Origin: Primula veris | Lineage: Eukaryota; Streptophyta; Magnoliopsida; Ericales; Primulaceae | Assembly: GCA_963682055.1 (NCBI GenBank) | Contig: OY821750.1 | Location: forward strand, 4,404,501-4,468,500 | Direction: 5' to 3' | DNA: 64,000 nt | In this document: piece after piece, positions 9,280 to 52,374 of the stretch | Position numbering within the stretch: position 1 is the first letter of the stretch | How the letters are laid out: every line of letters begins with the position of its first letter | Notes under the pieces: generated by a model | The model's input: the letters and a program-made list of their open reading frames with translations, nothing else | Databases searched by the model: none | Told to the model about the DNA's origin: nothing | Translations under genes and position numbers: made by a program

Positions 9280-9292
9280 GTGGAAAATGAAT

Positions 9293-9800
9293 GAATGGGG
9301 TGACGCGGGATACCTCGACAAATTCATCAACGGCCGGAACAAGGGCAAACAGCCAGCCGTTGAAGGAACAGATAACCGAAGTGGCAAGACAATCAATGTC
9401 GTACACTTGTCACGGCCCACAACCAGCCGAGGAGACCGCTCCCAACAAAGACAACTGGCGCACTTTGTTCAAGTAGCCAAAGCATCGCAGGCGTCCTCCT
9501 CTAAACGACAATGTCTGCCGTAGAGGCACCCACCTATCTCCTTCTCAGACCATGACGAAGAAGGAGTCATATACCCCCACGGCGACGCAATTGACCTCTG
9601 CATCAAGATAGGGATTGACACGGTTAGCAGAGTCCTTGTCGACCAAGGAGCTTCTTGTGACATCATGTACAAAGAGCTCTTCGACAAGATGGAGCTCCGG
9701 CTACAAGACCTACAGCCTACTGACGTAACACTGATATGCTTTATCTCAGAAACGACCAAACCTTTGTGAAAGATAGTCTTAAGTGTTACAACGGGATCCG
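9293..9800 (+). pseudogene. gypsy gag end and aspartic protease remnant
   Basis: The frame from about 9526 reads a retropepsin-like segment with 'VLVDQGASCDIMY', the Tat variant of the active-site D-[ST]-G loop, followed by 'ELFDKM'. A stop near 9769 and a frame change separate it from the downstream frame, which carries the protease C-terminal 'AILGRPWL' at about 9858. The family enzyme would cleave the Gag-Pol precursor. Upstream of about 9300 only a short gag tail remains. Confidence 0.7.
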
Positions 9801-12298
9801 TGTCAGTTCCCATGGAATTCTTAGTGGTCAACGACAATTCAGGCCACAATGCGATCCTAGGCCGACCATGGCTGCACCCCATACGCGCCATACCCTCGAC
9901 ATACCACCAGAAAGTGAAATACCCAAATGATAGAGGGGAGATTGAGACAGCCCGAGGCTGTCAAGAGGACTCGCGACGTTCTGAGGACATAACCGCTGCT
10001 TTAAAAAGACAGCTGGTCGTCGTGGAACAACCAACAAGCACAAAGAAGTTGGTGGCTCAAATTGCCAACAAGGAAAGAGTGGTGGAGGAGCAGGTAGGAG
10101 AAAAGCTCCGGAAAGTATACATCCCGGGAATGGATGAGGAACACTACTTTCTATTAGGCGAAAACCTCCCCGAGGAGGAATCTAAGGAGCTAGAGACTTT
10201 CCTATTTAACAACGTCGATAAATTTGCCTGGAGCCCCATAGAAATGCCCGGCCTAGACCCCAAAACAGCTTGCCACAAACTGAGTGTCAACATCGAGTAT
10301 GAGCCAATTGCTCAAAAGAGCAGAAAAGTATCTGTCCAACACAGAGAGGCTATAATAGCAGAAGTTCGGAAGCTTTTGGAAGCCGGGGCTATAAGGGAGG
10401 TGTTCTACCCGAAATGGTTATCTAATCCTGTCGTCGTCCCCAAGAAGAATGGCAAGGAAAGAGTTTGTATAGACTTTACAAACCTAAACAAAGCCTGCCC
10501 AAGGGACCTATTCCCCCTTCCAAGGATTGACCAATTGGTGGATGCAACAGCAGGAGCAGAACGGATGACCTTCCTAGATGCCTACTCGGGATATCACCAA
10601 ATCCCACTCGCCCAAGAGGATCAAGAAAAGACCTCGTTTATCTCACCTTTGGGAAACTACTGCTACAAAGTCATGCCGTTCGGCCTACGAAATGCAGGAG
10701 CTACCTACAAAAGGATGATCACAACGGTGTGCCAGAAGCACATTGGGAACATAATGGAGGTGTATATCGATGACATGGTTGTCAAAAGCGAACAGGCCAA
10801 CTCCCACCTGCAACACATCCAGGATGTTTTCCAAACCTTGGGCGAGCATAAGCTGAAGCTCAACGCAACAAAATGCGCGTTCGGCATCAGCAAATGTAAT
10901 TTTTTGGGGCACATGGTCAGCCAAAGGGGCATAGAAGCTAATCCCGACCAGATCGCAGTTCTGCGAAACCTAGCAGCACCCAAAAACAAGAAGCAGGTGC
11001 AGAAACTAACGGGAATGATGACCGTATTGAATAGATTTATCAGTCGATCCGCAGATAAAGGACGACCATTTTTTGAAACACTAGAAAAAGATAAGAAATT
11101 CACATGGGACCCGGAGTGCGAAGCTTCCTTCAGCAACCTCAAAGAGTACCTAAGGACGCTGTCACTACTTGTCAAACCGAACAAAGGCGATATCCTAGCA
11201 TGTTACCTCGCAGTCTCTGCAACAGCAGTAAGCGCAATGATCCTCAGAGAGGAAGGTCGGGAACAATTCCCGATATACTTCGTCAGCAAAACTCTGGTTG
11301 AAGCTGAAACACGGTATTTGCCTCTGGAAAAGTTGTGCCTTGCACTGGTAATGGCAACAAGGAAACTGCCACACTATTTTATTGCCCACCAAGTCTGGGT
11401 TTATACCAAATTCCACATTAAAGAGTCCCTCAGGCGAACGGACATTAGCGGACGCGTGGCGGCATGGGGGGTCGAGCTATCCCAATTTCATATCGACTTC
11501 GCACCCCGGCATGTTATCAAAGGACAAGTGTTCGCAAACTTCATTGCGGAGTTTACCGAGGGACACGACGAACCAACAGCCATCTCCCCACAATCACATT
11601 GGCAGATACATATCGATGGGTCCGCCACCAAAGACGGATCGGGAGCAGGAATCGTCCTCAAGTCTAGTGAGGGAGCCATCATTGAAAAAAGCATAAAACT
11701 GGGCTTCCGAGCAACTAACAATGAAGCCGAGTACGAGGCCATGATAAATGGCATGCTCATCGCACGGTCCCTCGGATGCTCCCACTTGATTGCTAGCTTA
11801 GACTCCATGCTCATCGTCAATCAAGCCATCGGCGAATACCAAGCCAAAGACGACCGGATGATACTATCAAGAGAGAGTCAAAGCTTAATGGCAAAATTCG
11901 AAAAGTGCGAGTTAATCCGAATTAACCGCACAGAAAATGCACACGCCGATGCATTGGCAACCCTGGCCTTGACACTAACATTCGTAAACACTCTGTCAAT
12001 CACAGTGGAACTACTGGAGACACCAAGCATCACCAGAAGGGTAGACCGAGTAATGTTGATACAGTACGAGCTAAGGTGGATGGAGGAAATGGTTCAATAT
12101 CTGCGAAACGGGACGTTCCCGGCAGATAAGATAAAAGCACTCAAGTTAACAAGAAAGGCTCCCAAATTTTGGCTATCCGACCAAGACAAACTATACAAGT
12201 CAAGTTACCGAGGACCACACCTGCTATGCGTCCGCACAGAACAGCAACAACAAATTTTGGAAGAAATCCATGCTCATCGTCAATCAAGCCATCGGTGA
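9800..12298 (+). pseudogene. gypsy reverse transcriptase-RNase H-aRNase H segment
   Basis: An 832-codon open frame. It starts inside the protease (AILGRPWLH), then runs a linker and RT ('VPKKNGKERVCIDFTNLNK', 'DAYSGYHQI', 'MPFGLRNAGATYKRM', catalytic 'YIDDMVVKS' at about 10768). The classical RNase H follows ('YFVSKTLVEAETRYLPLEKL'). A second, archaeal-type RNase H ('IHIDGSATKDGSGAGIVL', 'NNEAEYEAMI') occupies about 11600-11890. RT copies element RNA to DNA and the dual RNase H identifies Tat elements. The frame ends artificially where a 463 bp tandem duplication begins (12268), so RT looks intact but is detached from integrase. Confidence 0.9.
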
Positions 12299-12731
12299 AT
12301 ACCAAGCCAAAGACGACGGGATGATACTATCAAGAGAGAGTCCAAAGCTTAATGGCAAAATTCGAAAAGTGCGAGTTAATCCGAATTAACCGCACAGAAA
12401 ATGCACACGCCGATGCATTGGCAACCCTGGCCTTGACACTAACATTCGTAAACACTCGGTCAATCACAGTGGAACTACTGGAGACACCAAGCATCACCAG
12501 AAGGGTAGACCGAGTAATGTTGATACAGTACGAGCTAGGGTGGATGGAGGAAATGGTTCAATATCTGCGAAACGGGACGTTCCCGGTAGATAAGATAAAA
12601 GCACTCAAGTTAACAAGAAAGGTTCCCAAATTTTGGCTATCCGACCAAGACAAACTATACAAGTCAAGTTACCGAGGACCACACCTGCTATGCGTCCGCA
12701 CAGAACAGCAACAACAAATTTTGGAAGAAAT
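11805..12731 (+). repeat. Tandem duplication of about 463 bp inside pol
   Basis: Copy 1 is 11805-12267 and copy 2 is 12268-12731, joined at a CCATG microhomology. Copy 2 has one extra C ('GAGAGTCCAAAG' for 'GAGAGTCAAAG') and a few substitutions. The duplication covers the end of the archaeal-type RNase H and the connector to integrase. It terminates the long pol frame at 12298. Confidence 0.9.
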
Positions 12732-13788
12732 CCATGAAGGATCATGTGGAGCACACACCAAAGGAAGGTCCCTCGCCAACAAGACCATTACACAAGGATA
12801 ATGGTGGCCCTACATCAAAAGAGATGCCAACGTCTATGTCCAACGTTGTGACAAGTGCCAGCGATTTGCAAAAATACCTCGGCTCCCATCATCTATGATG
12901 ACCCCGGTATCGGCACCATGGCCATTCGCACAATGGGCAATTGATTTAGTCGGGAAGCTTCCCAAAGCACTAGGCAGTGTTGAATACTTGATTGTGGCTA
13001 CCGACTACTTCACAAAATGGGCCGAGGCTAAACCACTCGCACAAATCAAGGCCCAAAACGTCAAACAGTTCATCTGGGAACATATCATCACCAGATTCGG
13101 TATACCTTACGCCATCGTCGCAGACAACGGAACCCAGTTCAAAGATGCCAAGCTACAATTATGGTACAAAGAACTCGGTATCAGAAAGTTCTATTCGACT
13201 CCAACCTACCCACAGGGTAACGGCCAGGCCAAGGTATCAAACCGGACAATCCTAGATGGCATCAAGACAAGCTTAGCAAAAGCAAAGGGGAAATGGCCAG
13301 AGTGGCTTCTCAACGTTTTGTGGTCATGCCGAACTACACCCAAAACGGACACGAAGGACCCCGTTCAGCCTAGCATACGGTGTCGAGGCCGTCATACACA
13401 CAGAAGTCGGCCTACCCACACTTCGAACATCCCTAGTCGAACAAGGAAGCAATGAAGACAGAATGAGGGAAGAGCTTGACATGCTAGATGAAAAACGCGA
13501 GATAGCAACCCTTACCCTAGCAAAGTACCAACAAAGTGTGAAAAAAAATATGACAAGAGGGTGAAAGGGGCCAAGGAATTCATGGTAGGAGAATTGGTGC
13601 TAAGACGAGTAACTACCTACACAAGAAACGAGATACATGGCAAACTCAGTCCCAACTGGGAAGGCCTATACGAAATTGTCAAAAGAACAAGCCCGGTTTC
13701 TTACAAGATCAAAAGCGTTCTGTTCGACAATAGCAGATGAGAGAAAAATTCTTGGAACGTTGCTAATCTCAAGAAGCACTATCTGTAA
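12732..13788 (+). pseudogene. gypsy integrase, inactivated
   Basis: A zinc-finger-like N-terminus ('RCDKCQRFA') follows an in-frame TAA at 12799-12801. The catalytic core is next: 'WAIDLVGKLP' (first Asp) and 'VADNGTQF' (second Asp). The third acidic residue is lost: 'NGQAKVSNRTI' has Lys where the family has Glu. A frameshift near 13370 and a stop near 13562 follow. The C-terminal domain is still recognisable ('KLSPNWEGLYEIV') and ends at 'NLKKHYL', stop at about 13787. This integrase would be dead even without the stops. A polyadenylation-like AATAAATAAA lies at about 13845. Confidence 0.85.
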
Positions 13789-13868
13789 ACTAGTTTAACG
13801 CTATAGGTAATACTTTACCTCTTCCTTTGTAATGAAATTTTCCTTTGAATAAATAAAGTGCTTTGTTA

Positions 13869-14400
13869 TCATGTCTAAGAACCAAGTCCTCCAACGAACC
13901 GGAGGCATGTACAAGAAAAAGTCCTCCAACGAACCGGAGGCAATAGGGCTAAAGTCCCGAACAAGTCCTTCGACGAACTGAAGGCATGTCTAAGAAAATG
14001 TCCAAGAAAAGTTACAGACGGCATGTCTAAGAAAATGCCAAAGAAAATTCACAAGTCTTCCAACAAACCGGAGGCAACAGAGTTAAAGTCCCGAACAAGT
14101 CCTTCGACGAACTGAAGGCATGTCTAAGAAAATGTCCAAGAAAAGTTACAAACGGCATGTCTTAAGAAAATGCCAAAGAAAATTCACAAGTCCTCCAACA
14201 AACTGGAGGCAACAGGTTTAAGTCCCTAACAAGTCCTTCGATGAACTGAAGGCATGTCTAAGAAAATGTCCAAGAAAAGTTACAAACGACATGTCTAAGA
14301 AAATGCCAAAGAAAATTCACAAGTCCTCCAGCGAACCGGAGGCAACAGGGTTTAAGTCCCTAACAAGTCCTCCAACAAACCGGAGGGATCTCTAAGAAAC
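13869..14400. repeat. Tandem hairpin repeats after pol
   Basis: Three to four units of about 120-130 bp. Each contains short hairpins of the form CCTCC-AACGAACC-GGAGG (for example 13888-13905 and 13923-13940) and CCTTC-GACGAACT-GAAGG (13967-13984), separated by 'CATGTCTAAGAAAATG' spacers. The loop ACGAAC is constant while the stem varies with compensating changes. The array lies between the 3' end of plus-strand pol and the 3' end of the minus-strand ORFs. Confidence 0.85.
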
Positions 14401-14615
14401 AAAAGAAAAAAAAAACTAAATGCAGGTAAAACGAGATTCTTAAGTGATTCACGCCCGCATTACGGAGGCACAAGGAACGAATAAGAAGAACAAAAATCCA
14501 ACAATGAAATACCGGTACGGAAATAAGACGAAAAAATGCAATGTATACAAATAAAGCAAATGATGAATAGCCCGCATTACGGAGGCAACAATACTCGAAA
14601 AATAAAGAAAATAGC

Positions 14616-15251
14616 CTAAGAAGAGCTACTACATGAGGAGCACGTCGGTACTTGACCTAGCACAATCTCTTCGTCATCCGTCGCCGTGTCCTCATCCGTA
14701 TCCTCATCCTCAAAACGTTCCTGAGAAATAAGGCAATCGAAGTTGGTCGTATTAGCACCGACACGTTGCACTACTTCAAGCCGAGCGGCGAACTCTTTCC
14801 CCTTCGCGTGCTCGTGAGCATCAGAAGGTTCTTTACGACGAGCGTCGTCCAAAGGAAGCTGTCGAACTAGGGCCACGACCACCGAAGCATCATACCTAAG
14901 ACGAGAAGCATGGAAATACTTCATCAAGACGTTGGACCAGGATACCAACGACCTTAATTTACCAAGGTATTTGTCCTTCAAACGACAATATCGATCTAAA
15001 CGGTGCTCCTGAACCTCAACAACATGCTCGGCGCGTCGCACGTAATCACGAAAAGACGCCGCTTGGGTTTTTAACCTTTCCTTAAGTCGAGCACACTGAG
15101 CATGCAGTTTTTCGTTCTTACCCATTAGGTAAATATAAAGCCAATTGGCACGCGCTTCATTAGCCACACCAGATGAGGCCTCATCCCGGGCAGCACCAGT
15201 AGGTTCTTGCCCCGGACTACCAAGGGCCGGAGAACCAGCCTGGTGTGACAT
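14616..15251 (-). CDS. Antisense ORF 7 of gypsy element, coiled-coil protein
   Basis: 211 codons, starting MSHQAGSPALG. I recognise no family. The N-terminal 45 residues are Ala/Gly/Pro/Ser-rich. Residues about 48-140 are rich in Lys, Arg, Glu and Leu with a heptad-like pattern ('ARLKERLKTQAASFRDYVRRAEHV'). The C-terminus is strongly acidic ('EDEDTDEDTATDDEE') and ends in Ser/Cys repeats. A TATA-like TATAAAAGTATT on the minus strand sits at 15352-15363, about 100 bp before the ATG. It is the last member of the array and runs tail-to-tail with pol. Function unknown; related ORFs in Grande-type elements are also undefined. Confidence 0.6.
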   Translation of the reverse strand: MSHQAGSPALGSPGQEPTGAARDEASSGVANEARANWLYIYLMGKNEKLHAQCARLKERLKTQAASFRDYVRRAEHVVEVQEHRLDRYCRLKDKYLGKLRSLVSWSNVLMKYFHASRLRYDASVVVALVRQLPLDDARRKEPSDAHEHAKGKEFAARLEVVQRVGANTTNFDCLISQERFEDEDTDEDTATDDEEIVLGQVPTCSSCSSSS

Positions 15252-15405
15252 AGTAGCAGGTGCCTATAAAAAAAAATAGGGGGAGGAGACATGAATATTC
15301 ATCAAAAAGAGAGAAAAGACAGCAAATCAACAGAATAAATCAGAATAAAGAATACTTTTATACAAGTTGCATGAGAAAAGTCAAAATACAAAGCATTAAT
15401 TGAAG

Positions 15406-16016
15406 TTAGTCAGACAAGCCCTCGATAGAAGCCGAGGTCTCTACGGCATCAGCAAAATGAATATCCCGCAGCGAGATTATTCGCGTGCCCAAACGACTCT
15501 TCACCGAAGAATCCAAGCGGTTCAAGGCAGCCGTGGTCTCAGTTACCCGAGCCATAGCATCTACCATACGCTCCGCTCGGGTAACACCACGAGTGCCTTT
15601 CACATACTCATACACCTCTAGTGCACGAGCACGGGCCCAATACGCTTTCACGAAGGATAGTACAAGTCAGCGTCTTCAAAAATGGCCCCTAACACCAAAT
15701 TCAAGCTCGTCACCCGGCCCCGGGCATCATCCCGCAACCGACGAAGAGCTTCTAAAAGATCTTTAGCCTTTCCCTTATTTACAGTATAACGAGCCGTCTT
15801 CTTACTGAATTTCTCACCCAAAGTACGTAACCGAGTCGACAAGTTAGAAATATGAATATTCAACTCCTCGATTTCACGACGAGCAGAATTCTCTTCACAA
15901 ATAAGAGGTGAGTTAGAACCCTCGGGGTTCAAGACAGGCTGTTCACCTAAACTACAAGACGGCCCAGACCAAATCACCATAGCAAGGGGATTATCAGGTA
16001 CCTGACATGAGTTCAT
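15406..16016 (-). pseudogene. Antisense ORF 6 of gypsy element, frameshifted
   Basis: The reading starts at MNSCQVPDNPLAM (16016). It runs through a charged, coiled-coil-like segment ('ARREIEELNIHISNLSTRLRTLGEKF') to a stop at about 15648. The overlapping frame then continues 'KAYWARARALEVYEYVKG' to a stop at 15406. The overlap looks like one indel in a once-continuous protein of about 200 residues, the size of ORF 7. The minus-strand TATA candidate GTATATAATA lies at 16101-16110. No recognised family. Confidence 0.5.
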
Positions 16017-16195
16017 ATTCTTCAAAAGTACGAAGACAAGCAGCACGCAATGAAAAACAAAATGCAACAGAAAGGAAAACATGATGAAACAGACCAAAAA
16101 TATTATATACTCCCCAGAATATGAACATTGTACCATACAAAAAGCCCCACAACCGCGCACCAAAACAAAAACTACATTTAACTACATGTACTAGA

Positions 16196-18720
16196 TCAGT
16201 GGTCAACCTGCTCGGACGAAGGTCGGGGGGTCGAAGAACGAGGAGTGGCATCACCAGAACAAAGAGTGGCATCACCAGAATGAGGACGAGGGGCGGTGGA
16301 AACCAATTTCCCAGGCAACACCGGCAATTCATCATCCTGAATGTTCGCCCAATCTCGGGGAAGAGCAGGCGAAACACGGGGTGCTGGATAAGCAAATTTC
16401 GACCAGGCCGGGTGAGAGAGAGGAACCCTAGCCACGTTCAGAGCCCGAACATGATAGCTGAATGCGTAGAAATTTGCACTCCTCATGAACTTGCTCCACT
16501 CCTCTTCCTGAGCCGCCCTCAGAGAAGACAATTGGGCGTCCACTGCTTTCTTCTCAGCATCAAGCTTGGCATGATCCTCGGTCAGAGTTACCATTTTATT
16601 ACTCTCCTCGAGCAGACGCACATTCTTAGCCTCCAGCTTCCCATTTTCCTGGTGCAAGCGTATATTCTCGTCCGTCATCCTGTCATAATCCTCGGCCACA
16701 CTCAACGCCTTGGCCTTTTCCTCAGCAACGAGCTTCTCTTCGGCCAACAACTTGGCATTCTGCTCAGCCAAAAGCTTCTTCTCGGCCTCCAGTGCAGTGA
16801 ACTGATCCCTCAGCTTAGCAGTGATGAGGAACATCTGCAAGAGAACCACAAGTTACCAACAAATAGTAGGTAAAGAGGAGGAAACAAGGGGAGTAAAGGG
16901 AAATAAAGGGGAATAAAAGGAAACAAAACATACCCGAAGAGCATCCGCATTGGCCCGCTCAATGGCCGACACGGCAAGACGAGAAACAATGTCCTCTACG
17001 TCCTTATAAGCAAGGGGCCAAAGCGCAGTATAGCCCATCCTCATCGCTCGGGGCTGCTCCAGCAAATGACCACCACACCGAGCAATATAACGGGTCATTG
17101 ACTCCCCATCCACCTCCATTTTCTTTTCACCATCTCCAGCTCCCAAGAGGCTTTCCTCAGCATTTACCACCTCCTTCTTGACAGCCTCCACGACGACTTC
17201 CTCCTCCCCTACCTCCTTTTCAAACCGACCAGTCTCAGAGGCCACTTGCTTGGCCACCTCCTCCTCACCCCGAGGTGGCGAGATGCCAGGAAGAGTCATC
17301 GTCTCCTCTTCCATGTCATCAAAGTTCATGTGCGTGAACAAGTCATCATGACCCCTGAAACACAACAATGCCCATAGACCGGGCAAGGGCAAGCGTAACC
17401 AACAAAGACGTCACAGACTGAAAGACAAAAAACTGATAAAGAAGGGAAAACAAAATTACAACTAACAAAATCATTTAAACGTACCTCGTCTTCAGCCACC
17501 TTGTCCTCGGTGGAGACGGGCAAGCATGGACTCTCCCTTAGGGGAGTTGGCATCACCATCTCCGAGCTCACCTCAAGCACCCCCTCGCTCCTCGAGGTCC
17601 CAGATACCCTCGCCTTTTTTGAACTCTCTTCCTCGGGCTCCAATGACCATCGATGAGAACGAGAGGATTTTTTCCCTCCAAGGGCTGCAACACGAGGCTT
17701 GATGATCTTGAGGAAATCATCCTCTGTCTCACCGGGGATAGCAGGCAGAACGGTGCACCTATTCACCGGCCCCGCCACGTACCCCAACAGTTTAGGAGCA
17801 GCATGGTTAACCGCCTCCCTGGTCGGGCCAGGGCCCCACCACTTCCAAAGCGCTAACAAAACATCGGTATTGGGGGCACCGAGATCAGGCATATCGGGGG
17901 CAGAGGTAGCAGGCCCAGGAATTTGATGACCAGCAGGCACCAATTCCCCGATGCAATCATAATGCCAAGATTGTGTTCCTTATTGGTATCCGGAATATTG
18001 AGAATAATCCAGGTAAAGGAACGCGAAGTCTTCAGATAACAACTTCGGCGGTCAAAGTTAAAGAAATAAACCCCGAACACATCTTTGAGCTCGACACTCA
18101 CACCAGCCAACTCGGACAGTCTCTTAATACCGTTCAGAATACGGTAGCTATTAACAGCCAGTTGGCAAGGGGCAATCTGGAAGGCCTCGAAGAAAGAAGC
18201 CATCCAATCAGAGAAAGGAAGCTTTAACCCGCCGGTCAAGAGGGCCGATGACCGAATAGCCACCTCGCCAGCAGGAACTACCCCCAAGACCTCCTCTTCG
18301 GAGGTAGGAAGCCGTATTCGCACGTTGGCGGGTATCTCTGCACGACGCTTGAACTCCTCCTCGGTAAAGTCACTAACTTGAGCCAAACATTGGGTTAAAA
18401 TATCCTGAACAAAACGGCAAAAACAATTCATCAATACAGCAGCCACAGACAAAGCACACAAAAACGAGTTACATTCCCAATCCAATACAACAAATACAAT
18501 TGCTAATCAGCATAGACAGCCTAGACATAACCACAATCCTCACAACAAAAAATCGCACCAAGATAAAGATCCACAACCAACCCAATACAAGATTTTACAG
18601 AAGAATAAGAATAGATTAACGGAGAACACGATGACAAAGACCAATAAACTAAGAAAACGAAGCAACAACATATACAGTGAATCCCAAATATCAGGGGCAC
18701 TTACAGTCATTATGTTGGTA
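16196..18720 (-). CDS. Antisense spliced gene of gypsy element, PF04195-like
   Basis: Four exons are proposed on the minus strand: 18720-18715 (ATGACT, donor GTAAGT), 18404-17485 (acceptor TTGTTCAG, donor GTACGT), 17354-16934 (acceptor TTTCAG, donor GTATGT) and 16834-16196 (acceptor CTCTTGCAG). Exon lengths are phase-compatible at all three junctions. Exon 2 encodes a domain like the 'putative gypsy-type transposon' family PF04195 ('LLTGGLKLPFSDWMASFFEAF', 'IAPCQLAVNSYRI', 'FNFDRRSCYL'). Exon 3 is Glu/Val-rich, and exon 4 is a long coiled coil ('LEAEKKLLAEQNAKLLAEEK'). Exon 2 changes frame at about 17947, so at least one indel has broken it. The cellular role of this family is not established; domain assignment is from memory of its pattern. 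Confidence 0.6.
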
Positions 18721-19448
18721 GGAAAGAGACTGCAGCAACGAAGAGTTTATTCTTTTAAGAGAAGGTAGCAGCAGATGAAGAGAGAAGAACAAACCCTAGA
18801 GAGAGAATAAGAGAGATACACGTTGAGAAATTATGAGATGATAACAAAGAGAATTACTTCGAGAAGATAAAAGGAGTGGAGCCGCAAAAAAGGGAATAAA
18901 ATATTAACCGTCCTTTCGTGTGACAGAGGTTTCCCTCTTTTCAGCCACAGAAAAGTCAAACACCGTCAGATATTTCAAAATTCAACGCTCCAGATCTTGC
19001 CACGTCAAAAGGCATATCCCAGTAACCCATGCACTTCACATCATTGAACCTATATAAACGGCCAGTGGACACCACCACGAAAAGCTTACCACATACGCTA
19101 ACAATACTACTGCAGGAACCGTCGAGCAATATCTAAGTACCGAGGTGGAACACCGCACAAGAATAATGTAGAACGTTCCTAGCTCGACTGCACTTCAGCC
19201 TAAAGTCTAGCAACACTCTCCGGGGGGATAACCACGGTGTCCCATACCGAAGATACAGAACATAGTCTCAAAATGAAGAAACAGGCAAGCAGAGAAAAAT
19301 AAGCAGTAAACGAATTATAAAAGGAAGGCAGATAATAAAGTACTTTTATTCATCCACAAGGGGGAAAACAACCAGTTACAACGGATTCAATCCAAACAAA
19401 AAGAAAAACATTATTACAAAAACCATCCCCAAAACCTAGAACTACCCC

Positions 19449-19480
<32 letters not shown>

Positions 19481-19600
19481 GGCATCCTTCTTCGACAAGA
19501 GCCCCTTTTCCTTAATCAAGCGGGAAATACCATGGAAGTTCTGCCGTGAATGTAACAACATATTGTATCCAAAGGAAGACAGAAACAATAAGATACTTCT
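18721..19600. other. Promoter-side spacer within gypsy 3' region
   Basis: On the minus strand, 18720-18800 is pyrimidine-rich like a leader for the spliced antisense gene. No recognisable protein is seen. It contains a C-run followed by (CA)n at 19445-19479. Positions 19481-19544 are a partial repeat of the 3' end of antisense ORF 4 (19627-19702, sharing 'TTCCTTAATCAAGCGGGAAA'). Confidence 0.6.
19445..19479. repeat. C-run plus (CA)n microsatellite
   Basis: Twenty-one consecutive C residues followed by about seven CA units. Length is unreliable in any assembly. Confidence 0.9.
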
Positions 19601-19951
19601 CTATGTTTGCCGACTACCACCCTCATCGGCATCCCTCTTCGCCAAAAGCTCTTTGAGGCGCTCTTTTTCCTTAATCAAGCGGGAAATACCAACCTCCGCC
19701 TGTTGCAAAGCATAAGACTGAGATTTGCACTTCTCCTCGGCCTTATAATAAGCAGCCGTCTCTTCGTTCCAGTACTGTTTAAACCTCTTGCATTCAGTCT
19801 CAGAACACTTGAGAGCCACCTTCAGCCACGCAACCTCTCTCTCCTTTAACTCAAGCGGGGTCAAGTCCTCAGAAACAAGAGGAGGAAACCTAAAAAGGGG
19901 CTCATCCTCTATAATTTTCTTCTTGGCAGTGGATCTAGTAACAGGAGCCAT
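19601..19951 (-). CDS. Antisense ORF 4 of gypsy element, coiled-coil protein
   Basis: 116 codons from [12 protein letters not shown]. The longer open frame starting at 20041 would begin upstream of the likely transcription start. A TATA-like CTATAAATG on the minus strand lies at 20039-20046, about 90 bp before this ATG. The N-terminus is basic, then residues about 35-110 are a charged amphipathic coiled coil ('[21 protein letters not shown]'). No family recognised. Similar in size, start context and promoter spacing to the other antisense ORFs. Confidence 0.55.
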
Positions 19952-20038
19952 CTCAGGAAATAGCAGGTTAAAAGAAACCAGAGTTGTAAAATAGGAGAGA
20001 AGGGAAAATATGATAATAAAATGCAAAACAATAGGGAG

Positions 20039-20046
20039 CATTTATA
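20039..20046 (-). promoter_or_regulatory. TATA box candidate for antisense ORF 4
   Basis: Minus-strand TATAAATG, 88-95 bp upstream of the ATG at 19951. Confidence 0.45.
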
Positions 20047-20302
20047 GGAAATCATAAGGCACAAAGTACAAACCGGTGCAATAGACGAAAAGACACAAGA
20101 TACGAGGTGTTACAACAGTTCAAAATATGAAAAGGCACGAAGTACGAAGAGATGCAATAAATGAAAAAAATACAGTACGAGGCTTTGCAGCAGTTCAAAT
20201 TAAATAAGGAAATTATGAATTACAAAAGGGAGCCCTAAAGTTAGCCATAGACAGGATAAGAAACAAGACAATGAAAATACATTAAAAGAAAAGAAATTAA
20301 AT

Positions 20303-20761
20303 TCAAGGACCAACAAGAGGGAAAACCGAACTGCCATACCGAGAAAAAGGCTCCCGAGGAGCAGCATGGTCATAGCGAGCCAACCGAGCTCGAAACGAGG
20401 AATTGATGACAGCCAAAGACTCATTCTCCCTAGTAAGAGCAATGACTTGACCTCTAAGCCGAGCATTTTCACCCACCATGCTAGCAAGGCCGTGAGCACC
20501 GTTGTCAAATTCTTCCTGCGCATGATCCCAAATCTCCTCGGCCTCATACCAAGAGTTGGCCAGATGATTTCTACGCAATAGCAACTGGTCGAGCTGATGA
20601 CTCAGGGCTGAAATCTTGGTCCACTTAACGGTATCCTCGGGATATGAGTCAAACAGACTCAAAGCCAGAATAACGTACTCCTCTTCAAGTTTAGCCATGC
20701 GGTGACAGACCCGAGACACCTCATCGTCTAAGTCCTTCATTTGACCATGATATCTCACCAT
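20303..20761 (-). CDS. Antisense ORF 3 of gypsy element, coiled-coil protein
   Basis: 152 codons from MVRYHGQMKDLDDE. The frame stays open upstream to 20848, but that ATG is only about 35 bp from the TATA box (TATAAATA, 20882-20889) and adds a hydrophobic stretch unlike its relatives, so the inner ATG is preferred. The protein is Leu/Glu/Arg-rich with heptads ('LSHQLDQLLLRRNHLANSWYE', 'LRGQVIALTRENESLA') and ends with an aromatic/Pro tail. No recognised family. Confidence 0.5.
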   Translation of the reverse strand: MVRYHGQMKDLDDEVSRVCHRMAKLEEEYVILALSLFDSYPEDTVKWTKISALSHQLDQLLLRRNHLANSWYEAEEIWDHAQEEFDNGAHGLASMVGENARLRGQVIALTRENESLAVINSSFRARLARYDHAAPREPFSRYGSSVFPLVGP

Positions 20762-20881
20762 GGGCTCATGTATTCTTAAAAGTGGGTATACAACAGAGAA
20801 AAGGAAAAAGAAGGGAAGGCAAGAATTAAGTAAGAGAAACTTATGCAAGATAATGATACCACTTGAAGAAAGATGGAAGGG

Positions 20882-20889
20882 TATTTATA
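20882..20889 (-). promoter_or_regulatory. TATA box candidate for antisense ORF 3
   Basis: Minus-strand TATAAATA within 'GCTCTATAAATACCC', about 120 bp upstream of the preferred ATG. Confidence 0.5.
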
Positions 20890-21150
20890 GAGCAAAAATA
20901 CTACGTCATTGACTGACAATGCTTGGGAACATGCATATCTGATTGACCATGTATGGGAAAACACATCTTTGGCAATCTGACACATGCCTCAGATATCACG
21001 TGGGTACAGTACGGTAAGAGAGAAAATAAACAACATATTCGATGATCTGACATTCCAAAAAACGACAAACGACAAACGCAACATGAAAAGGGGAGCAATA
21101 GAAGATGCAAATATATATTTCATTAATAAAAATAGGGTACACAGGCGTTC

Positions 21151-21262
21151 ATTACATCAGAGGATAACATCAAAAAGAAATCTATCACATCAGAGGATAA
21201 CCTCAAAAGGAAATCTATTACATCAGAGGATAACCTCAAAAGGAAACCTACTACATCAAAGA
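21151..21262. repeat. 33-bp tandem repeat, about 3.5 copies
   Basis: Unit built on 'CATCAGAGGATAACCTCAAA'. It lies downstream of antisense ORF 2 on its strand, so possibly in its 3' untranslated region. Confidence 0.85.
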
Positions 21263-21354
21263 GCAAGCGAACAAGAAACACAACCAAAAAAAAAAAAAAA
21301 AAGTGTGAGAGAAGAAAGTATAAAACAGAGAGTGCAAGAGAATAAAGCATAAAA

Positions 21355-21645
21355 TTAGGGTGAAGTTGGTCGGTATCGATGAGAGGGATCCGCAGGTATT
21401 ACATCTTGTAGCGAAGGATTCCTCCTCAGAACGTTGTTCTCATCGATCAAAGATTGATGAGGACGCCTGCAATAGTCCAACTCGGCCCTCAGCCAAGTCA
21501 ACTCCCTCACCATCTCGGCATGATGAGTACGCATCACTCTCATCTCTGCCTCAGCATCTCTTAACATCTTCAGTACATTACCATAAGAGGCTTCAAAAGC
21601 CTCTACTTTCAAGGCCAAAGCAGACCTAGAAAATGGGGCAGCCAT
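21355..21645 (-). CDS. Antisense ORF 2 of gypsy element, coiled-coil protein
   Basis: 96 codons from MAAPFSRSALALK. Residues about 10-70 form a clear coiled coil ('MLRDAEAEMRVMRTHHAEMV', 'LTWLRAELDYC'). The tail is polar and Pro-rich. TATAAATA on the minus strand at 21726-21733 is about 85 bp upstream of the ATG. No recognised family. Confidence 0.5.
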   Translation of the reverse strand: MAAPFSRSALALKVEAFEASYGNVLKMLRDAEAEMRVMRTHHAEMVRELTWLRAELDYCRRPHQSLIDENNVLRRNPSLQDVIPADPSHRYRPTSP

Positions 21646-21725
21646 TGCAATTTACAGGATAATAATATATATATAGCAGAAGGAATATATGGAGAGATTA
21701 TGAAGAAAGACAAGCTTCAAAGGAG

Positions 21726-21733
21726 TATTTATA
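21726..21733 (-). promoter_or_regulatory. TATA box candidate for antisense ORF 2
   Basis: Minus-strand TATAAATA in 'ATCTATAAATACTCC'. Same core as the ORF 3 box. Confidence 0.5.
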
Positions 21734-22147
21734 GATAAATTAAGAGAGGCAATAAAGTGGGGAATCACAACCGTTCGCCAAACGGTTTAAATAAGCGTAT
21801 GCATTAAAGAGATGCGACTGCTCAAAAGAGACTCTTGGATTCGTGCCATTATTTTGGAAAGGCATTTGCATCCATGACCTTACAGGGAAGTACACCAATC
21901 TTAAGAGTATTAAATAGGATTCTTTGCACAGGGATCGAGAAAACTCAGTGGATAAGATCATGCACAGGGTTCGAAGAAGCCCATTAATGACGCCACACAC
22001 GCGTGATAAAGAGAAATACAGTAAAGATAAATTACGTTGGGAAAATAAAACAGATAAGAACGAGAATTAGAAGATATTTTATTAATTCCAGAGACTCCAT
22101 TACAAAGAGAGGCCACAGTCAAACAAAAAAGAAATTACAAAAGCAAA

Positions 22148-22489
22148 TTATCCCGAGGAGGAGCTGGCTTCAACGTCATCCGATCCAGGTTTGGACCGAG
22201 CATGCAGCTCCTTGAAGGCAAGCTTATAAGCCCTTTTTGCCGCCTTATGCTTATCCCGGGAAGCCTCGAGCTTCTTTATCCGTTCATAGGCCCAATCCCG
22301 ATCAGCCATCATCACGTGATGAGCCGCGTCCATATCTGACAACCTTTTCCTGTAATCTGGTACCCTGAGAAATTCTCTTGCCACAACAGCAAACTTCCTC
22401 TTCACAATACGAGCTTTCTTGACCTCTTTCTCTAAGAAAGCAATGTATTCGGGAGAGTTGTCACCAGAAGAACCATTGGGAGAGGCCAT
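22148..22489 (-). CDS. Antisense ORF 1 of gypsy element, coiled-coil protein
   Basis: 113 codons from MASPNGSSGDNSPEY. A basic amphipathic centre ('LEKEVKKARIVKRKFAVVAR', 'ERIKKLEASRDKHKAAKRAY') is followed by an acidic/Ser tail ('DDVEASSSSG'), echoing the tail of ORF 7. TATA-like TATTATAAAA at 22544-22553 lies about 60 bp upstream. It is the ORF nearest the 3' LTR. No recognised family. Confidence 0.5.
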   Translation of the reverse strand: MASPNGSSGDNSPEYIAFLEKEVKKARIVKRKFAVVAREFLRVPDYRKRLSDMDAAHHVMMADRDWAYERIKKLEASRDKHKAAKRAYKLAFKELHARSKPGSDDVEASSSSG

Positions 22490-22761
22490 GACGTTACTAG
22501 CAAAGTATTAGTAATTGAATGATTATTAAGAGGGTATAATCCCTTTTATAATAGACAAATGTGGGAAGATCAAGAGTCACCTCGAAGCAAGATAACATGC
22601 TTAAAATTCCCAATGACACTGAATGGCCACAAGGAAACAATTATAAATCTATTACGTTTTTCGATGAAACATTGGGAATAGCAAGACCGAAGTAACATCC
22701 TCGTAAGACCGATCATGACTTCCTCGCCGTGGAGACCACACCGAAGAAGTCACGGAGCACT

Positions 22762-23329
22762 AGATAGAACACAAAAAGTAGACCCGAATTTATTTATTCG
22801 GATCCGATTCAACCCACAATTTACTAATGGGTACCCAACGCTTAAATAATAGATATCGGGCTATAACATGCCTTTCCTTAAGAAGGAAGATAAGAATACT
22901 ATAAAATGTCCAAGCCCACTTAACAAGGGCCCCACATTGGAAAAGCCCATGAGATGATGCATGAGATGAAGACATTTGTCAACATCCTATGACATATAAA
23001 TGCCTATAAATAGCCCAGTACCTTTACTAGGAAAAGGACCCGAAAAATCATAGAGAGAAGAAGATAAAAGAAAAAAGACTTGTCAGAGCTTATCTCCCTA
23101 GAAATCATATCGAGAGAAGTGAAGACCGAACATCAAAGCTAAAGACCAAGATCAAGATTTAAGATTAGATTATTTAAACCGAGCACAAGTGTAATAGCTA
23201 AGGATAATCCGAGCAAGAATAATTACCGATCAATAAGAAAGGCTAACGTGTCCAATCATTATCTTCTTTAATTTACTATATTATTTTTGAAAAGCATAAC
23301 CACGACGGATTAAAGTTATTGCTTTATCA
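22762..23329 (+). mobile_element. 3' LTR of Tat gypsy element
   Basis: About 568 bp, from GATAGAACACAAAAAGTAG to GCTTTATCA. It matches the 5' LTR at 51107-51673 nearly base for base, with scattered substitutions. Internal landmarks include 'CCTATAAATAGCCC' (TATA) near 23003. It is followed by GAAAC, the same 5 bases that precede the LTR at 51107. Confidence 0.9.
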
Positions 23330-23400
23330 GAAACTCTTAATGTAAAATAAAATGTATATTGATCAACCAAGTTTTACGATGGATCCAATTGTGTATCTTA

Positions 23401-23775
23401 ACAGTAGATGTCAATAGTATGCCTTCCCCACGCCTCTTCGGGACCCACATTCCATTTCCAAAATTACCTAGGTCTATTGAAAGCTCCGGTTCTCGGATTG
23501 TATACGTCTGTAGAAATCCTTAAGATGTATTGGTGTCGTTCTGGTACTTTGCCTCTCAGCTGAGGGATAAGGACTCTCAGCTGAGGGGTAAGGACGCGCC
23601 CCCTTTTTCATTGGAAGAGGCGTTTGAGTTATTTTCTGAGGAGAAATCTTGGTATGGACCCTTTTGGGACCACGTGAAGGCACGCAAGCTTGGAAAGTCC
23701 CGACATAGTTTTCTTTATAACGTATGAGGAGATGAAAAGAGATTCGGTGGACTGTACCAAGAAATTAGCGGAGTT
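23401..23775 (+). pseudogene. Sulfotransferase pseudogene B, truncated at both ends
   Basis: It has the same 5' breakpoint as pseudogenes A, D and E, and the same TAA (23521-23523) replacing Lys in RNPKD. It also carries a small internal duplication ('CTCAGCTGAGGG...AAGGAC' twice, 23562-23594) and a deletion after 'GACCACGTGAAGG' that shifts frame. Homology stops in 'GCGGAGTT' (23768-23775). There the sequence jumps to the upstream region of the next SOT, deleting the rest of the pseudogene and about 2 kb of spacer. Confidence 0.85.
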
Positions 23776-24303
23776 TAATGAATTTTTCAAACCTAACATA
23801 TTTTATATATTTTAAGAAACTATTTACATTTAAACAAAATTTCAGATTACTTATTAATTTACTTATAATAACCCTACATTATTTATTTTTATTTTTTTAT
23901 TATCATTTAATAATTATAACAATATTCCAACCACAAAAATGTGGAGAAGATGATAGTTTCTTACTATTATATGGAATTTAGGAAATTTATAAGTATTCTG
24001 ATACATGCTAATTTTTATACCATAATTATCAAATTTTAGAAAAAATTATGTTTGAGTTAATATTGAGCGGATGTGGATGCTCTTATAATATTGAACATAT
24101 TATGCGCTTTCATAATCAACTTAATTTTATAGTTTTCTATTATTCTATGATCCGATCTGTTAACAGCTAGTCAAAACTATCAAACATGTGATTTCTGCTC
24201 TAAACATATTTTAATAGCTTTTGATTCCTTAGAAAAGCTATTGTCGGTAGACATAAATCAATATATATACTGAGGAGGTTGCTATACACCTATCATTATT
24301 TTC
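23776..24303 (+). promoter_or_regulatory. Upstream region of SOT gene 1
   Basis: This is conserved with 38625-39145 (before SOT gene 2) and 63735 onward. A TATA box, ATATATATA, lies at 24260-24269 inside the block 'CAATATATATA(C/G)TGAGGAGG' that precedes every full SOT here. The strongly conserved 'TTCCTTAGAAAAGCTATT' at about 24226 could be a promoter element. The ATG at 24407 is about 137 bp downstream of the TATA box. Confidence 0.6.
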
Positions 24304-24342
24304 ATGTGCAATTCGCTTGAACAAATGTCTTACAAAACCTAA
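24304..24342 (+). other. Upstream ORF (12 codons) of SOT gene 1
   Basis: ATG at 24304 opens MCNSLEQMSYKT and stops at 24340-24342, 64 bp before the main ATG and in another frame. It is downstream of the TATA box, so it is probably in the leader. Genes 2 and 3 have a same-length version, MCNVLDKMSYKN. Confidence 0.5.
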
Positions 24343-24406
24343 AGTATTTTCTTCCTTATTCTTAGCTAGAGATATATTGAGCGGTTACCTTGGTAAAAAC
24401 TCAATA

Positions 24407-25387
24407 ATGGCTTCATCTCTCGATCCCAATGACCAAAAAGGCGAAACCGAAATAAGCGTTGAAAGTTACAAAGAGTTGTTCTCGACCCTTCCAAAGGAAA
24501 AGGGATGGTTCTCTGAACATTTGTATCTATACCAAGGCTATTGGTACGAACTCGAACATGGCCTAGGGGCTATGGCAGTTCAAGAACACTTTAAGGCTAG
24601 GCAAACCGATATTTTCTTAGCTTCAAGTCCAAAATCCGGCACGCTTTGGCTTAAGGCCATACTCTTTGCCATCATGAACAGAACAAAATACAAAATTGTC
24701 GACCACCCACTCCTCACTACGAACCCTCACAAATGCGTGCCTTTCCTAGAGTTGGACCTCTTTCAAAAACCTCCTTTTACAGATCTGAATAGTATGCCTT
24801 CCCTACGCCTCTTCGGGACCCACATGCCATTCTCATCATTACCCAGGTCTATTGAAAGCTCCGGTTCTCGGATTGTATACGTCTGTAGAAATCCTAAAGA
24901 TGTATTGGTGTCGTTCTGGTACTTTGCCTCTCAGCTGAGGGATAAAGACTGGCCCTCTTTCTCAATGGACGAGGCGTTTGAGTTGTTTTCTGAGGGCAAA
25001 TCCGAATTTGGACCCTTTTGGGACCACGTGAAGGAATACAAACAAGCAAGCTTGGAAAATCCCGATAGAGTTTTCTTTATTACATATGAGGAGATGAAAA
25101 GAAACTCGCTGGACTGTACAAAGAGATTAGCCGACTTTGTAGGGTGCCCTTTCTCTAAGGAAGAGGAAAAGGATGGTGCGGTAAAGGACATTATTGAGTT
25201 GTGTAGTTTCGACAATCTGAGAAATTTAGAAGTGAACAAGTCCGTTCATACAATTACTGGAGGCTTCACGAACGCTGTCTTCTTTAGGAATGGCAAAGTT
25301 GGCGACGGAAAAAAACATTTAACAAATCAGATGATTGAGTATTTGGACAAGATCACCAATGAGAAGTTAGCTGATATTTTCCCGTAA
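24407..25387 (+). CDS. Cytosolic sulfotransferase gene 1 (intact)
   Basis: 326 residues, single exon, the usual length for plant cytosolic SOTs. They transfer sulfate from PAPS to a hydroxylated small molecule such as a flavonoid, steroid or hormone. Visible motifs: PAPS 5'-phosphosulfate loop PKSGTLWLK (75-83), catalytic His139 in GTHMPF, 3'-phosphate-binding RNPKDVLVS (161-169), and C-terminal RNGKVGDGKKH (294-304). In the last, Gly stands where the family usually has Trp (GDW). No signal peptide. The ATG at 24407 is chosen because it gives the common MASS start; the upstream in-frame extension has no ATG. It differs from genes 2 and 3 by about 30 residues, many before residue 60. Substrate cannot be inferred. 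Confidence 0.95.
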   Translation: MASSLDPNDQKGETEISVESYKELFSTLPKEKGWFSEHLYLYQGYWYELEHGLGAMAVQEHFKARQTDIFLASSPKSGTLWLKAILFAIMNRTKYKIVDHPLLTTNPHKCVPFLELDLFQKPPFTDLNSMPSLRLFGTHMPFSSLPRSIESSGSRIVYVCRNPKDVLVSFWYFASQLRDKDWPSFSMDEAFELFSEGKSEFGPFWDHVKEYKQASLENPDRVFFITYEEMKRNSLDCTKRLADFVGCPFSKEEEKDGAVKDIIELCSFDNLRNLEVNKSVHTITGGFTNAVFFRNGKVGDGKKHLTNQMIEYLDKITNEKLADIFP

Positions 25388-32580: not shown

Positions 32581-33207
32581 TAGTACTGTAAATGAGATGA
32601 GTTGTTTGTAAAATCATTCGTGTTCGGTTCGGCTAATGTTCGGTTCATGTTCGTTCATTTATAAATGAACAAGAATATATTGTTCGTCTATTAAGTGAAC
32701 TGAACATGAACATGCCTTTGTTCGGTTCGGTTAAACTCGTGTTCGTGTAATTATATATAAAATTTGATAAAATAAAAAATTAAATCTATTAATGATGTAA
32801 CAAAAACTAATATCACTACACACTTAATAAACTTATTTATGCTATAATAATATAAATGATATGTTTGTATTATTTCGAACTTATTATGGTAATTTATATC
32901 ATCATACTATAAATACAGTCATCGATTTTATCGTTAAGTGTTCAACTCGTTAAAATAATCATACGTATGTAAATATTTTTTTTTATACAATATATAAACT
33001 TAAAGTTATATGTGAACTATTTTATCTTTGTTAACAATATAATATTATATGATAAAATTAAAATATATTTTAAAAACAAAGAAAAAAATATATTTTTTCA
33101 ATTATTGAATGTGTTGGAAGAAATTAGATGTTTACGAACAACTCGTGTTCGACTCGTCAAACGTTCGGTTCATGTTCGTCAAATGTTTGTTCGTATTTAA
33201 ATGAACA
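32581..33207. mobile_element. hAT-type element, 3'-truncated copy
   Basis: It starts TAGTACTGTAAATGAGATGAG after CTTCTAAT, the same insertion point as the complete copy at 36350. The interior has repeated 'GTTCGGTTCGG' and 'GAACATGAAC' motifs. It is cut at about 33207 ('TTTAAATGAACAT'), where the sequence jumps to SOT distal upstream DNA. Confidence 0.75.
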
Positions 33208-34504
33208 TTGTATGTCATTTCAAAAAGGTCAAGCAAATTTAATGATTTTTTCAAACTTAACAAATTATATATATTTTAAGAAACCGTTTACATTTAAACA
33301 AAATTTCAGCTTATTTATTAATTTACTTATAATAACCCTACATTATTTATTTTAATTTGTTTAAATTCGATAAACATCTTATCTTAATAACAAGGAATAG
33401 TGTTTTAAGCATTATTACTAGGGTACGGTAAAGTCTAAAAAAACGTAAGGTTTATCGGTAAAAAAGAGAGATGGAAAACGAGCTTTCCAAGCTTTGAATC
33501 AAGCTTTTCTCAAGCTTCGAATCAATTTTTTTTTGTTTTTACCACGAAGCATGCTTTTTAAAAGAGTGATTACAATACAACTCTCATTAATTTTTCTCTG
33601 TCTATCCTCAATATTACTATTCGTTTACACAAGTGTTTTATGCCATTGCAAAAAAGTCAAGCAAACGTATCAGATCTTATATACGTGCTCATATATATAT
33701 ATATTTCCGCTGCGGTGATCGGTTTTCAGTTCTTCGACAACTTTTCTGGCGAGATTCCGGTCAGTTTTTCGACGAGTCTCCCGACAGTTTTCTGCCGCTG
33801 TTTGGTGATCAGATCTGCTCCGTTTTACATTTTCGACGATCTGGAGATTATTCTCGCAACAGTTATTTTCCGGCGAGTTTTGCCGATCATCCGTTTTGAC
33901 CTATTTTTCTGATCCGATTGCGTCTATGACAATATCAGAGCAATCTGGAGTGATTATTACGTCTCATTTCAGTTTTTCAGCGAGATTTACCGGTGATAGT
34001 TTCGTCTCCGGCAAGATCTGATCACCTTCTCGGGCGACAGTTATAAATCTCGTATTCTTCATTTTATTTCTCTGACGAGTTTACATCGGATCTGGTTTGT
34101 TAACTCTCCGGTGATGATATGCTGTTTTCCGATCGTCTTCTCATAATGTTTCAGATATGTTTTTTTATTTTTTATTATCATTTTTGTCTCATACACATAT
34201 ACATACAAACTCACAGTCACCTAAATATATACAAATTCACATTTATATATACATACATAACAATACTAATACTAATATGCCGTTCTTCGTTCTCCGACGA
34301 TACATCGTTTCTTTATCTTCGGCAAACTGATTTCCTCTCTTCTTTGATGCCGATGTATATTCGGGTTATCTTCTCCTATTCTCCGACGATTTACCCTTTT
34401 CTTTTCTTCTCCGATGTGGAGGTTTTATCTTTCTCTCTCTATATCTATATACATATGTGTATATCGACAAAGTGACGTTGCATCTGTTCGACAGATTTGT
34501 TTTT
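33208..34504. repeat. Fused SOT upstream remnant and R block, copy 2
   Basis: 33208-33357 is the distal upstream DNA that normally leads to an SOT promoter. At about 33357 it switches directly to SOT 3'-flank sequence ('TTAAATTCGATAAACATCTT'), so promoter and coding region are deleted. The R block follows (33398-34260). No gene remains. Confidence 0.75.
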
Positions 34505-51675: not shown

Positions 51676-51688
51676 TGGCGCCGTCTCC
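51676..51688 (+). other. Primer binding site
   Basis: TGGCGCCGTCTCC two bases after the LTR, matching the TGGCGCCG type primer site usual for Tat elements. Confidence 0.65.
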
Positions 51689-52365: not shown

Positions 52366-52374
52366 GGAAAGGCC

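Follow-up and report, generated by a model that had tools for sequence, protein, structure and literature searches.

The 64,000-nucleotide (nt) stretch of Primula veris DNA analysed here (the window) contains the 3' part of a Ty3/gypsy long terminal repeat (LTR) retrotransposon, a decayed copy that lies at about positions 9279-23329 and is truncated there at its 5' side. LTR retrotransposons are thought to manage with gag and pol, and with few extra open reading frames (ORFs) at most. Judged from the sequence, the region from pol to the 3' LTR of this element is very probably the accessory-gene array of a Retand-type element, with seven coding genes, or eight in copies with a doubled unit 1, all of them antisense to gag-pol. 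Its units are coding sequences that purifying selection has preserved while a large family evolved, their order and strand are conserved, and most of them carry a TATA motif at a similar distance. Antisense ORFs, the TRP28 gene and, in Grande, a single antisense gene driven by a promoter of its own are already published; an array of seven appears to be new. The units, numbered from the LTR inwards, are listed below with the evidence for each, where dN/dS is the ratio of nonsynonymous to synonymous substitution rates among genomic copies.

22148-22489, minus strand: unit 1, 113 amino acids (aa); ATG-started ORF, dN/dS, ATG in copies
21355-21645, minus strand: unit 2, 96 aa; ATG-started ORF, dN/dS
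20303-20761, minus strand: unit 3, 152 aa, three helices predicted; ATG-started ORF, relative P0002, dN/dS
19601-19951, minus strand: unit 4, 116 aa; ATG-started ORF, dN/dS
18705-18710, minus strand: unit 5 (TRP28 gene), exon 1 of six bases; exon-donor pattern
17980-18404, minus strand: TRP28 exon 2, Transposase_28 match at about 18075-18248, 3' boundary uncertain; PF04195, E 1e-4
17485-17979, minus strand: TRP28 internal coding segment, donor at 17484; dN/dS over 17485-17943
16934-17354, minus strand: TRP28 internal exon; donor and acceptor located
16196-16834, minus strand: TRP28 last exon, highly charged; dN/dS, acceptor AG in 15 of 16 copies
15648-16016, minus strand: unit 6, first part, 122 aa; dN/dS
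15406-15651, minus strand: unit 6, second part, in another frame in the window copy; dN/dS
14616-15251, minus strand: unit 7, 211 aa with an acidic/Ser tail and a predicted long helix; relative P0001, genomic matches, dN/dS

Coding signal and purifying selection

As an earlier note on this DNA had reported, units 1-4 and 7 are open on the minus strand of the window sequence and start with ATG. That note had also taken 15406-16016 as a single ORF, which in the window copy falls into two frames (15648-16016 and 15406-15651), and had placed every substantial ORF on the minus strand, whereas in fact the plus strand carries ATG-started ORFs at 16121-16873 (250 aa) and 20984-21352 (122 aa). The former was rejected as a gene and is best taken as a shadow, its codon position 1 falling on the position that varies most in the minus frame; the latter spans a 33-bp tandem repeat. 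From pol to the LTR the minus strand holds 12 ATG-started ORFs of at least 90 aa, some overlapping and some being pieces of the TRP28 gene, against an expected mean of 1.06 and a maximum of 4, and 12 were reached by none of 500 dinucleotide-preserving shuffles. On the plus strand there are two such ORFs for 1.16 expected, a number reached in 169 of the 500 shuffles, and the summed ORF length was reached in 14. All ten minus-strand coding segments have significant three-base periodicity, with z from 3.3 to 20.8 and no p above 0.008, while none of the seven spacers has it (z between -1.0 and 0.1), and the guanine plus cytosine fraction is 0.46-0.58 in the coding segments vs 0.31-0.42 in the spacers. 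Among 647 ORFs from the shuffles, the observed periodicity was reached by 0, 5, 0 and 0 for units 1 to 4, by none for the TRP28 last exon, by one for the first part of unit 6 and by none for unit 7.

The host genome searched (436.5 Mb) gave at least 150 scored matches to unit 7 (the best 150 of 1426 candidates), 105 of the 150 listed being without internal stop in a hand count of stops only, and at least 150 to unit 1 (the best 150 of 2677 candidates). For 48 of the 150 unit-7 matches a unit-1 match lies 3-11 kb upstream on the same strand, among the matches listed on both sides; among these listed matches it lies downstream in no case and on the opposite strand in two. Twenty-two copies were fetched, 20 mainly from the better-scoring unit-7 rows (18 without a stop) and two from lower down the list. 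All seven units occur in the same order and strand in 15 of the 22 (E <= 1e-5, some units partial), namely in 13 of the first 20 (L009, L010, L012, L014, L016, L017, L018, L020, L022 and L024-L027) and in both later copies; units are missing or rearranged in the other seven (L011, L013, L015, L019, L021, L023 and L028). A related LTR was found in 19 of the 22, ahead of the array and in the expected orientation in 18, and turned in L019. The unit-7 copies L004, L005 and L006 score almost alike and follow one another at intervals of about 24.5 kb on host contig C1, a spacing that may reflect segmental amplification carrying the element.

Pairwise Nei-Gojobori (NG86) dN/dS was computed among the copies, with one alignment piece per copy over at least 60% of the unit and 18-23 rows each including the window, for ten segments, leaving out the TRP28 internal exon 16934-17354. 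The medians (where two figures are given, the lower is from this version and the higher from one that could join alignment pieces) are 0.21 for unit 1, 0.23-0.24 for unit 2, 0.24-0.26 for units 3 and 4, 0.16, 0.36 and 0.28-0.30 for TRP28 exon 2, segment 17485-17943 and last exon, 0.27-0.28 and 0.23-0.24 for the two parts of unit 6, and 0.32-0.33 for unit 7, with values below 1 in 1839 of 1845 pairs (which are not independent) in the version with one piece per copy; both versions span 0.16-0.36. Neutral ratios, which the earlier note had named as a sign against its reading, are thus far from those of every unit, in ten of ten segments. Because these alignments were protein-guided, the test was redone on plain DNA alignments of nine segments, where codon position 3 diverges 1.8-3.0 times as much as position 2, while in six spacers the three phases differ at most 1.26-fold. 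When all six frames were scored on the same DNA, the annotated frame had the lowest dN/dS in each of the nine segments (0.16-0.33); a single complementary frame gives 0.25-0.43, because it shares its third positions with the annotated frame, and the remaining four give 0.89-2.01. Insertions and deletions (indels) are multiples of three in 6 of 8 cases in unit 1, 18 of 23 in unit 2, 13 of 22 in unit 3, 22 of 23 in unit 4, 77 of 89 in the TRP28 last exon and 2 of 2 in unit 7, and in 9-28% in the spacers. Stops interrupt 7 of 21 and 1 of 23 rows for the two parts of unit 6 and 2 of 23 for unit 7. Constraint on the active lineages is probably stronger than these ratios, since decay after insertion is mixed into them.

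Two of the units have relatives among 5.8 billion predicted proteins, both from short contigs. Unit 7 matches P0001 (212 aa, 64% identical over 96%; the sole match at E <= 0.01), which starts at the same Met, and unit 3 matches P0002 (159 aa, 65% identical over 100%; the sole match at E <= 0.1). Compared with simulated neutral change, the observed scores of the P0001 and P0002 pairs were reached in 759 and 358 of 4000 runs, the replacements being no more conservative than neutral, and no stop arose in 79 and 380 of the 4000; this comparison is superseded by the dN/dS. The clustering of identity in the two pairs was reached in 898 and 351 of 5000. A composite query made of pieces of units 1, 2, 4 and 6 found no match among the predicted proteins; queries with the TRP28 exon, pol, unit 7 and unit 3 found no relatives in viral contigs, and queries with pol and unit 7 found none in genome contigs.

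Promoter motifs, gene ends and alternative readings

The TATA-like sequences that the earlier note had seen upstream of most ATGs were recovered as TATA[AT]A in six of the seven units, 61-128 nt ahead of the start; when the TATA sites were shifted circularly, the mean was 0.57 units, and six were reached in 20 of 10,000 shifts.

22545-22550, minus strand: TATA motif of unit 1, 61 nt upstream of the ATG, in 15 of 16 copies
21728-21733, minus strand: TATA motif of unit 2, 88 nt upstream, in 14 of 14 copies
20884-20889, minus strand: TATA motif of unit 3, 128 nt upstream, in 16 of 16 copies, all CTATAAAT
20041-20046, minus strand: TATA motif of unit 4, 95 nt upstream, in 15 of 16 copies
16104-16109, minus strand: TATA motif of unit 6 (TATATA), 93 nt upstream, in 11 of 19 copies
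15357-15362, minus strand: TATA motif of unit 7 (TATAAA), 111 nt upstream, in 15 of 21 copies

Recurrence of TATA and ATG was counted in the first 20 fetched copies and the window. The TATA motif is kept in 60 of 62 cases for units 1-4 and in 26 of 40 for units 6 and 7, vs a background of 13-14%, and for unit 1 it stands at 60-63 nt from the ATG in 13 of 15. A core promoter motif, as expected upstream of an antisense gene with its own promoter of the Grande gene23 type, is present in six of seven units and recurrent among copies. An ATG is found at the projected start in 16 of 16 copies for unit 1, 13 of 14 for unit 2 and 16 of 16 for unit 4; the start of unit 3 lies four codons earlier in P0002 and in L009. 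Behind the stops, within 300 nt, two kinds of motif were sought, TTGTAA/TGTAAT and then AATAAA-like, which we take to be the plant poly(A) consensus (background 23% and 28%). They occur in 16 and 16 of 17 copies for unit 1, 13 and 15 of 19 for unit 2, 14 and 0 of 17 for unit 3, 17 and 18 of 18 for unit 4, 9 and 2 of 17 for TRP28, 0 and 14 of 23 for unit 6, and 6 and 0 of 23 for unit 7. In the window alone AATAAA follows one of the seven stops, the same as chance.

A second unit-1 gene stands between units 1 and 2 in 8 of the 22 fetched copies, 46-57% identical to unit 1 of the window, with an ATG in 8 of 8, a TATA motif in 6 of 8 and a stop in 1 of 8; its presence in some copies makes the spacer lengths bimodal. 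Unit 1 is the only unit for which a tandem paralogue is known. That the array is one gene duplicated seven times was considered and is not shown, the best probability in an all-against-all profile comparison of ten segments being 8.7% (units 2 and 3). Behind the stop of unit 4, beside a poly-C and CA stretch, positions 19506-19532 are a 27-bp exact copy of part of its coding end (19665-19691), a trace of partial duplication. By their TATA and poly(A)-type motifs, units 1, 2 and 4 resemble complete transcription units, and unit 3 nearly does. The tandem series of apparently separate antisense units proposed in the earlier note thus finds support, stronger for units 1-4 than for units 5-7, in the recurrence of TATA at similar distances, the enrichment of poly(A)-type motifs behind units 1, 2 and 4 and the duplication of unit 1.

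Unit 5, which had been described as a spliced gene at 16196-18720, is indeed spliced and was identified as the TRP28 gene, with its ATG at 18710. The introns 18704-18405 and 16933-16835 are GT-AG and keep the frame in the window copy; the joint 17484/17354 breaks it, and a further frame change lies near 17980. The AG at the intron ends is retained in 15 of 17 copies for one and 15 of 16 for the other, and the six-base first exon with its donor was recognised in 9 of 17 and not in 8. Transposase_28 is matched by 11 of 14 members of the copy set at E <= 0.01 (best 6.6e-5), a weak but recurrent match. The 5' leader (18700-18870) is CT-rich, and instead of a TATA motif the gene strand carries CTAGGGTTT, a motif of plant promoters.

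Several observations weigh against the array as described. The match of PF04195 to TRP28 exon 2 (E 1e-4, 22.9 bits) falls below the gathering cut-off of 26.2, and no TATA motif was found within 160 nt upstream of the TRP28 start. The projected start has an ATG in only 5 of 16 copies for unit 3, 4 of 19 for unit 6 and 8 of 21 for unit 7; for units 6 and 7 the low counts may be an artefact of projecting starts from partial alignments. Multiples of three are few among the indels of TRP28 exon 2 (2 of 7) and of the two parts of unit 6 (15 of 42 and 0 of 4). Stops break 10 and 8 of 18 rows in units 3 and 4 (1 and 3 of 18 in units 1 and 2) and 5 of 19, 8 of 19 and 8 of 20 rows in the TRP28 segments, and the fetched copies are biased to the less decayed, because 20 of the 22 were picked from rows without a unit-7 stop. 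The poly(A)-type motifs are inconsistent behind TRP28 and unit 7 and of one kind only (14 of 23) behind unit 6, and the spacers of units 5-7 are short (115-212 nt), so that these units may share transcripts. Finally, Pfam, PDB profile and fold searches gave no domain or fold pointing to an activity.

An origin of the ORFs by chance in a decaying element is hardly conceivable: the window copy is truncated and partly broken, and many other copies carry stops, but this origin is refuted by the ORF excess, the periodicity, the dN/dS and the codon-position and six-frame results, and both shuffle comparisons (none of 500 reaching 12 ORFs; periodicity against n = 647) rule it out. Scarcely more credible is a region that matters only as antisense or double-stranded RNA, with incidental ORFs; a part in regulating retrotransposons has been proposed for antisense transcription in itself (PMC7264820), but the codon-position pattern and low dN/dS of the ORFs are absent from the spacers, which refutes this as the whole story. 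It is also improbable, if less remote, that one or two long antisense transcripts, starting near the 3' LTR, take in the ORFs as exons or cistrons. The TATA retention of units 1-4 (60 of 62) speaks against such transcripts, as do the poly(A)-type motifs, which follow unit 1 at an almost constant distance (16 of 17) and unit 4 at a varying one (17 and 18 of 18), the share of only 9-28% of spacer indels that are multiples of three, the doubling of unit 1, mostly with its TATA motif, and the shared Met start of P0001 and unit 7; what suits them is the splicing of the TRP28 gene, the short spacers of units 5-7 with no consistent poly(A)-type motif, and a T-rich stretch ending in AG 12 nt ahead of the unit-7 ATG.

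Compatible with the accessory-gene array, and quite possible though somewhat short of an even chance, is that this is an ordinary Retand region and that similar small antisense genes are general, hidden by the length cut-offs of surveys. Antisense coding regions between pol and the 3' LTR are present in all clusters described by Vicient 2025, where the ORFs shown exceed 600 bp, or are shorter with TRP28, and number 104 antisense over 63 clusters (PMC11963269); Neumann 2019, as far as the available text goes, counted extra ORFs from 250 codons (PMC6317226). Against an ordinary region speaks its size: the largest pol-3' LTR region given by Vicient 2025 is 6,566 bp, vs about 8,973 bp in the window. 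Because cut-offs of 600 bp and 250 codons miss genes of 96-152 codons, accessory genes may be undercounted in plant genomes.

The element, its lineage and its surroundings

The remaining features of the element are the following.

9800-12298, plus strand: pol with reverse transcriptase, RNase H and second RNase H (RVT_3); Pfam RVT_1, RT_RNaseH, RVT_3
12895-13455, plus strand: integrase core; Pfam rve, 5.6e-11
13883-14399, no strand: tandem repeats with a 134-bp unit, just 3' of pol; repeat comparison
22761-23329, plus strand: 3' LTR, start inferred from the 5' LTR, ending TATCA and adjoined by GAAAC at 23330-23334; 548 of 567 bases match 51108-51673
51107-51673, plus strand: 5' LTR of apparently the same insertion, with GAAAC at 51102-51106; LTR comparison

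The element is, by its domains, of the Retand type (Ty3/gypsy, Tat clade). The domain order is that of gypsy, with reverse transcriptase, RNase H and then integrase last (RVT_1, RT_RNaseH, rve); RVT_3, which we take as the marker of the archaeal-type second RNase H, lies at pol residues 606-722, after RT_RNaseH and ahead of the integrase; and an antisense gene with Transposase_28 (PF04195), scoring below the Pfam cut-off, lies between pol and the 3' LTR. The position of an archaeal-type RNase H between RNase H and integrase is given as a trait of Ogre and Retand (PMC6317226). Read by eye, pol ends at the stop 13786-13788, and a 464-bp tandem duplication within the pol region covers 11804-12736. 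A search with pol against viral and genome contigs found no relative.

The two LTRs are 97% identical and have GAAAC, a candidate 5-bp target-site duplication, on both outer flanks, the 5' LTR lying 28 kb downstream of the 3' LTR; a primer-binding-like TGGCGCCG starts at 51676, behind the 5' LTR, an ORF at 51742-52116 has the position of gag (with no match in a Pfam scan), and the empty site is retained in three paralogous stretches (6282, 31200 and 34985). The two ends look like one insertion separated by rearrangement of a gene cluster, a single insertion being only presumed because they are 28 kb apart and in the wrong order. The left end at 9279 is an abrupt junction with local repeats, in which 9175-9278 matches 23774-23877, 9132-9278 matches 33195-33341 and 9063-9277 matches 63610-63861. 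Near 52.2 kb the ORF at the gag position is adjoined by Ty1/copia-like gag-pol ORFs (52343-56336, judged from translations). A sulfotransferase gene lies beside the element (PF00685; one copy tested, 24317-25387), and many families of 300-bp repeats surround it over 6300-59600, which suggests a tandem cluster of the gene plus fragments.

Gene products, possible role and known systems

The products had been described in the earlier note as coiled-coil proteins with Ser/acid tails, and both descriptions hold in part. AlphaFold, with two-sequence alignments, models unit 7 as a helix some 100 residues long whose core is predicted confidently (predicted local distance difference test, pLDDT, 61) and unit 3 as three helices (pLDDT 72), both models being of modest confidence as a whole. 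Weak Pfam matches of the units include several to coiled-coil families, and on the sets of units 7 and 1 Pfam gave scattered weak matches (THOC7 in 4 of 17, others in one to three members); a heptad-periodicity test was positive for 15648-16016 only (36 of 5000 permutations) and negative for the eight other segments tested. The tails are clear in units 1 and 7, the TRP28 last exon ends Ser-rich, and they are absent from the others. A fold search with the unit-3 model gave no match at E <= 0.001 and no PDB relative, and PDB profile searches of units 7, 3 and 4 found no relative.

Seven antisense genes are kept under constraint, with at least 150 matches for unit 7, which implies that the proteins do something that the element needs. 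Host RNA polymerase II would transcribe the units from integrated DNA, independently of the LTR. The antisense genes cannot be read from the genomic RNA, because this is the other strand, and expression would be from chromatin; likewise, the TRP28 introns would survive retrotransposition because they are not introns of the genomic RNA, which fits the kept TRP28 splice sites. By analogy with the accessory proteins of complex retroviruses, the TRP28 protein and the other, small and in part helical, proteins would most likely serve in the nucleus as accessory factors that act on the element's chromatin, its RNA or its pre-integration complex, and the array may have a regulatory or an assembly role. 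One tentative proposal is a nuclear accessory complex that affects silencing or transcription; one that acts on particle assembly and nuclear import is the more doubtful of the two. It is likewise rather unlikely, if conceivable, that the element has a complex accessory genome, with seven to eight antisense genes, mostly with private promoters, that grows by doubling whole transcription units and, with chromatin as its template, runs a programme independent of the LTR; the block might then be a former mobile or viral cassette fused with a Tat-clade element, since outside TRP28 the units have no detectable relation to each other or to a known family. With the array, the role of antisense ORFs in plant retrotransposons becomes testable gene by gene.

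A literature search, mostly without subscription papers, turned up no published array of several antisense genes with private promoters, and the accessible part of PMC12786077 holds no precedent for a multi-gene one. The nearest systems are the Retand TRP28 elements, which share with the window element a gypsy pol, a long pol-3' LTR region, repeats beside pol and an antisense Transposase_28 gene (PMC11963269). By contrast, the window family has seven to eight antisense genes, the majority preceded by a TATA motif, within about 8,973 bp against at most 6,566 bp, and in its available text that survey describes neither an array of separate units nor dN/dS. Antisense accessory ORFs in the same place are also cited for Silene Retand (ORF3/ORF4) and Phaseolus PvRetro13 (ORF2), one with TRP28 and one with an SMC domain (PMC7264820, PMC11728184), but there are one or two of them in each, as cited. 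Like retroviruses, the element would have several small accessory genes beyond gag-pol, some of which are antisense in retroviruses (PMC11963269, PMC7264820; an analogy only), while in the window element all are antisense. In Grande, gene23 is an antisense gene between pol and the 3' LTR whose own upstream promoter drives transcription and whose product is nuclear (Gomez-Orte 2013, as described by Vicient and Casacuberta 2020, PMC7264820); compared by description only, Grande has one such gene where the window element has an array.

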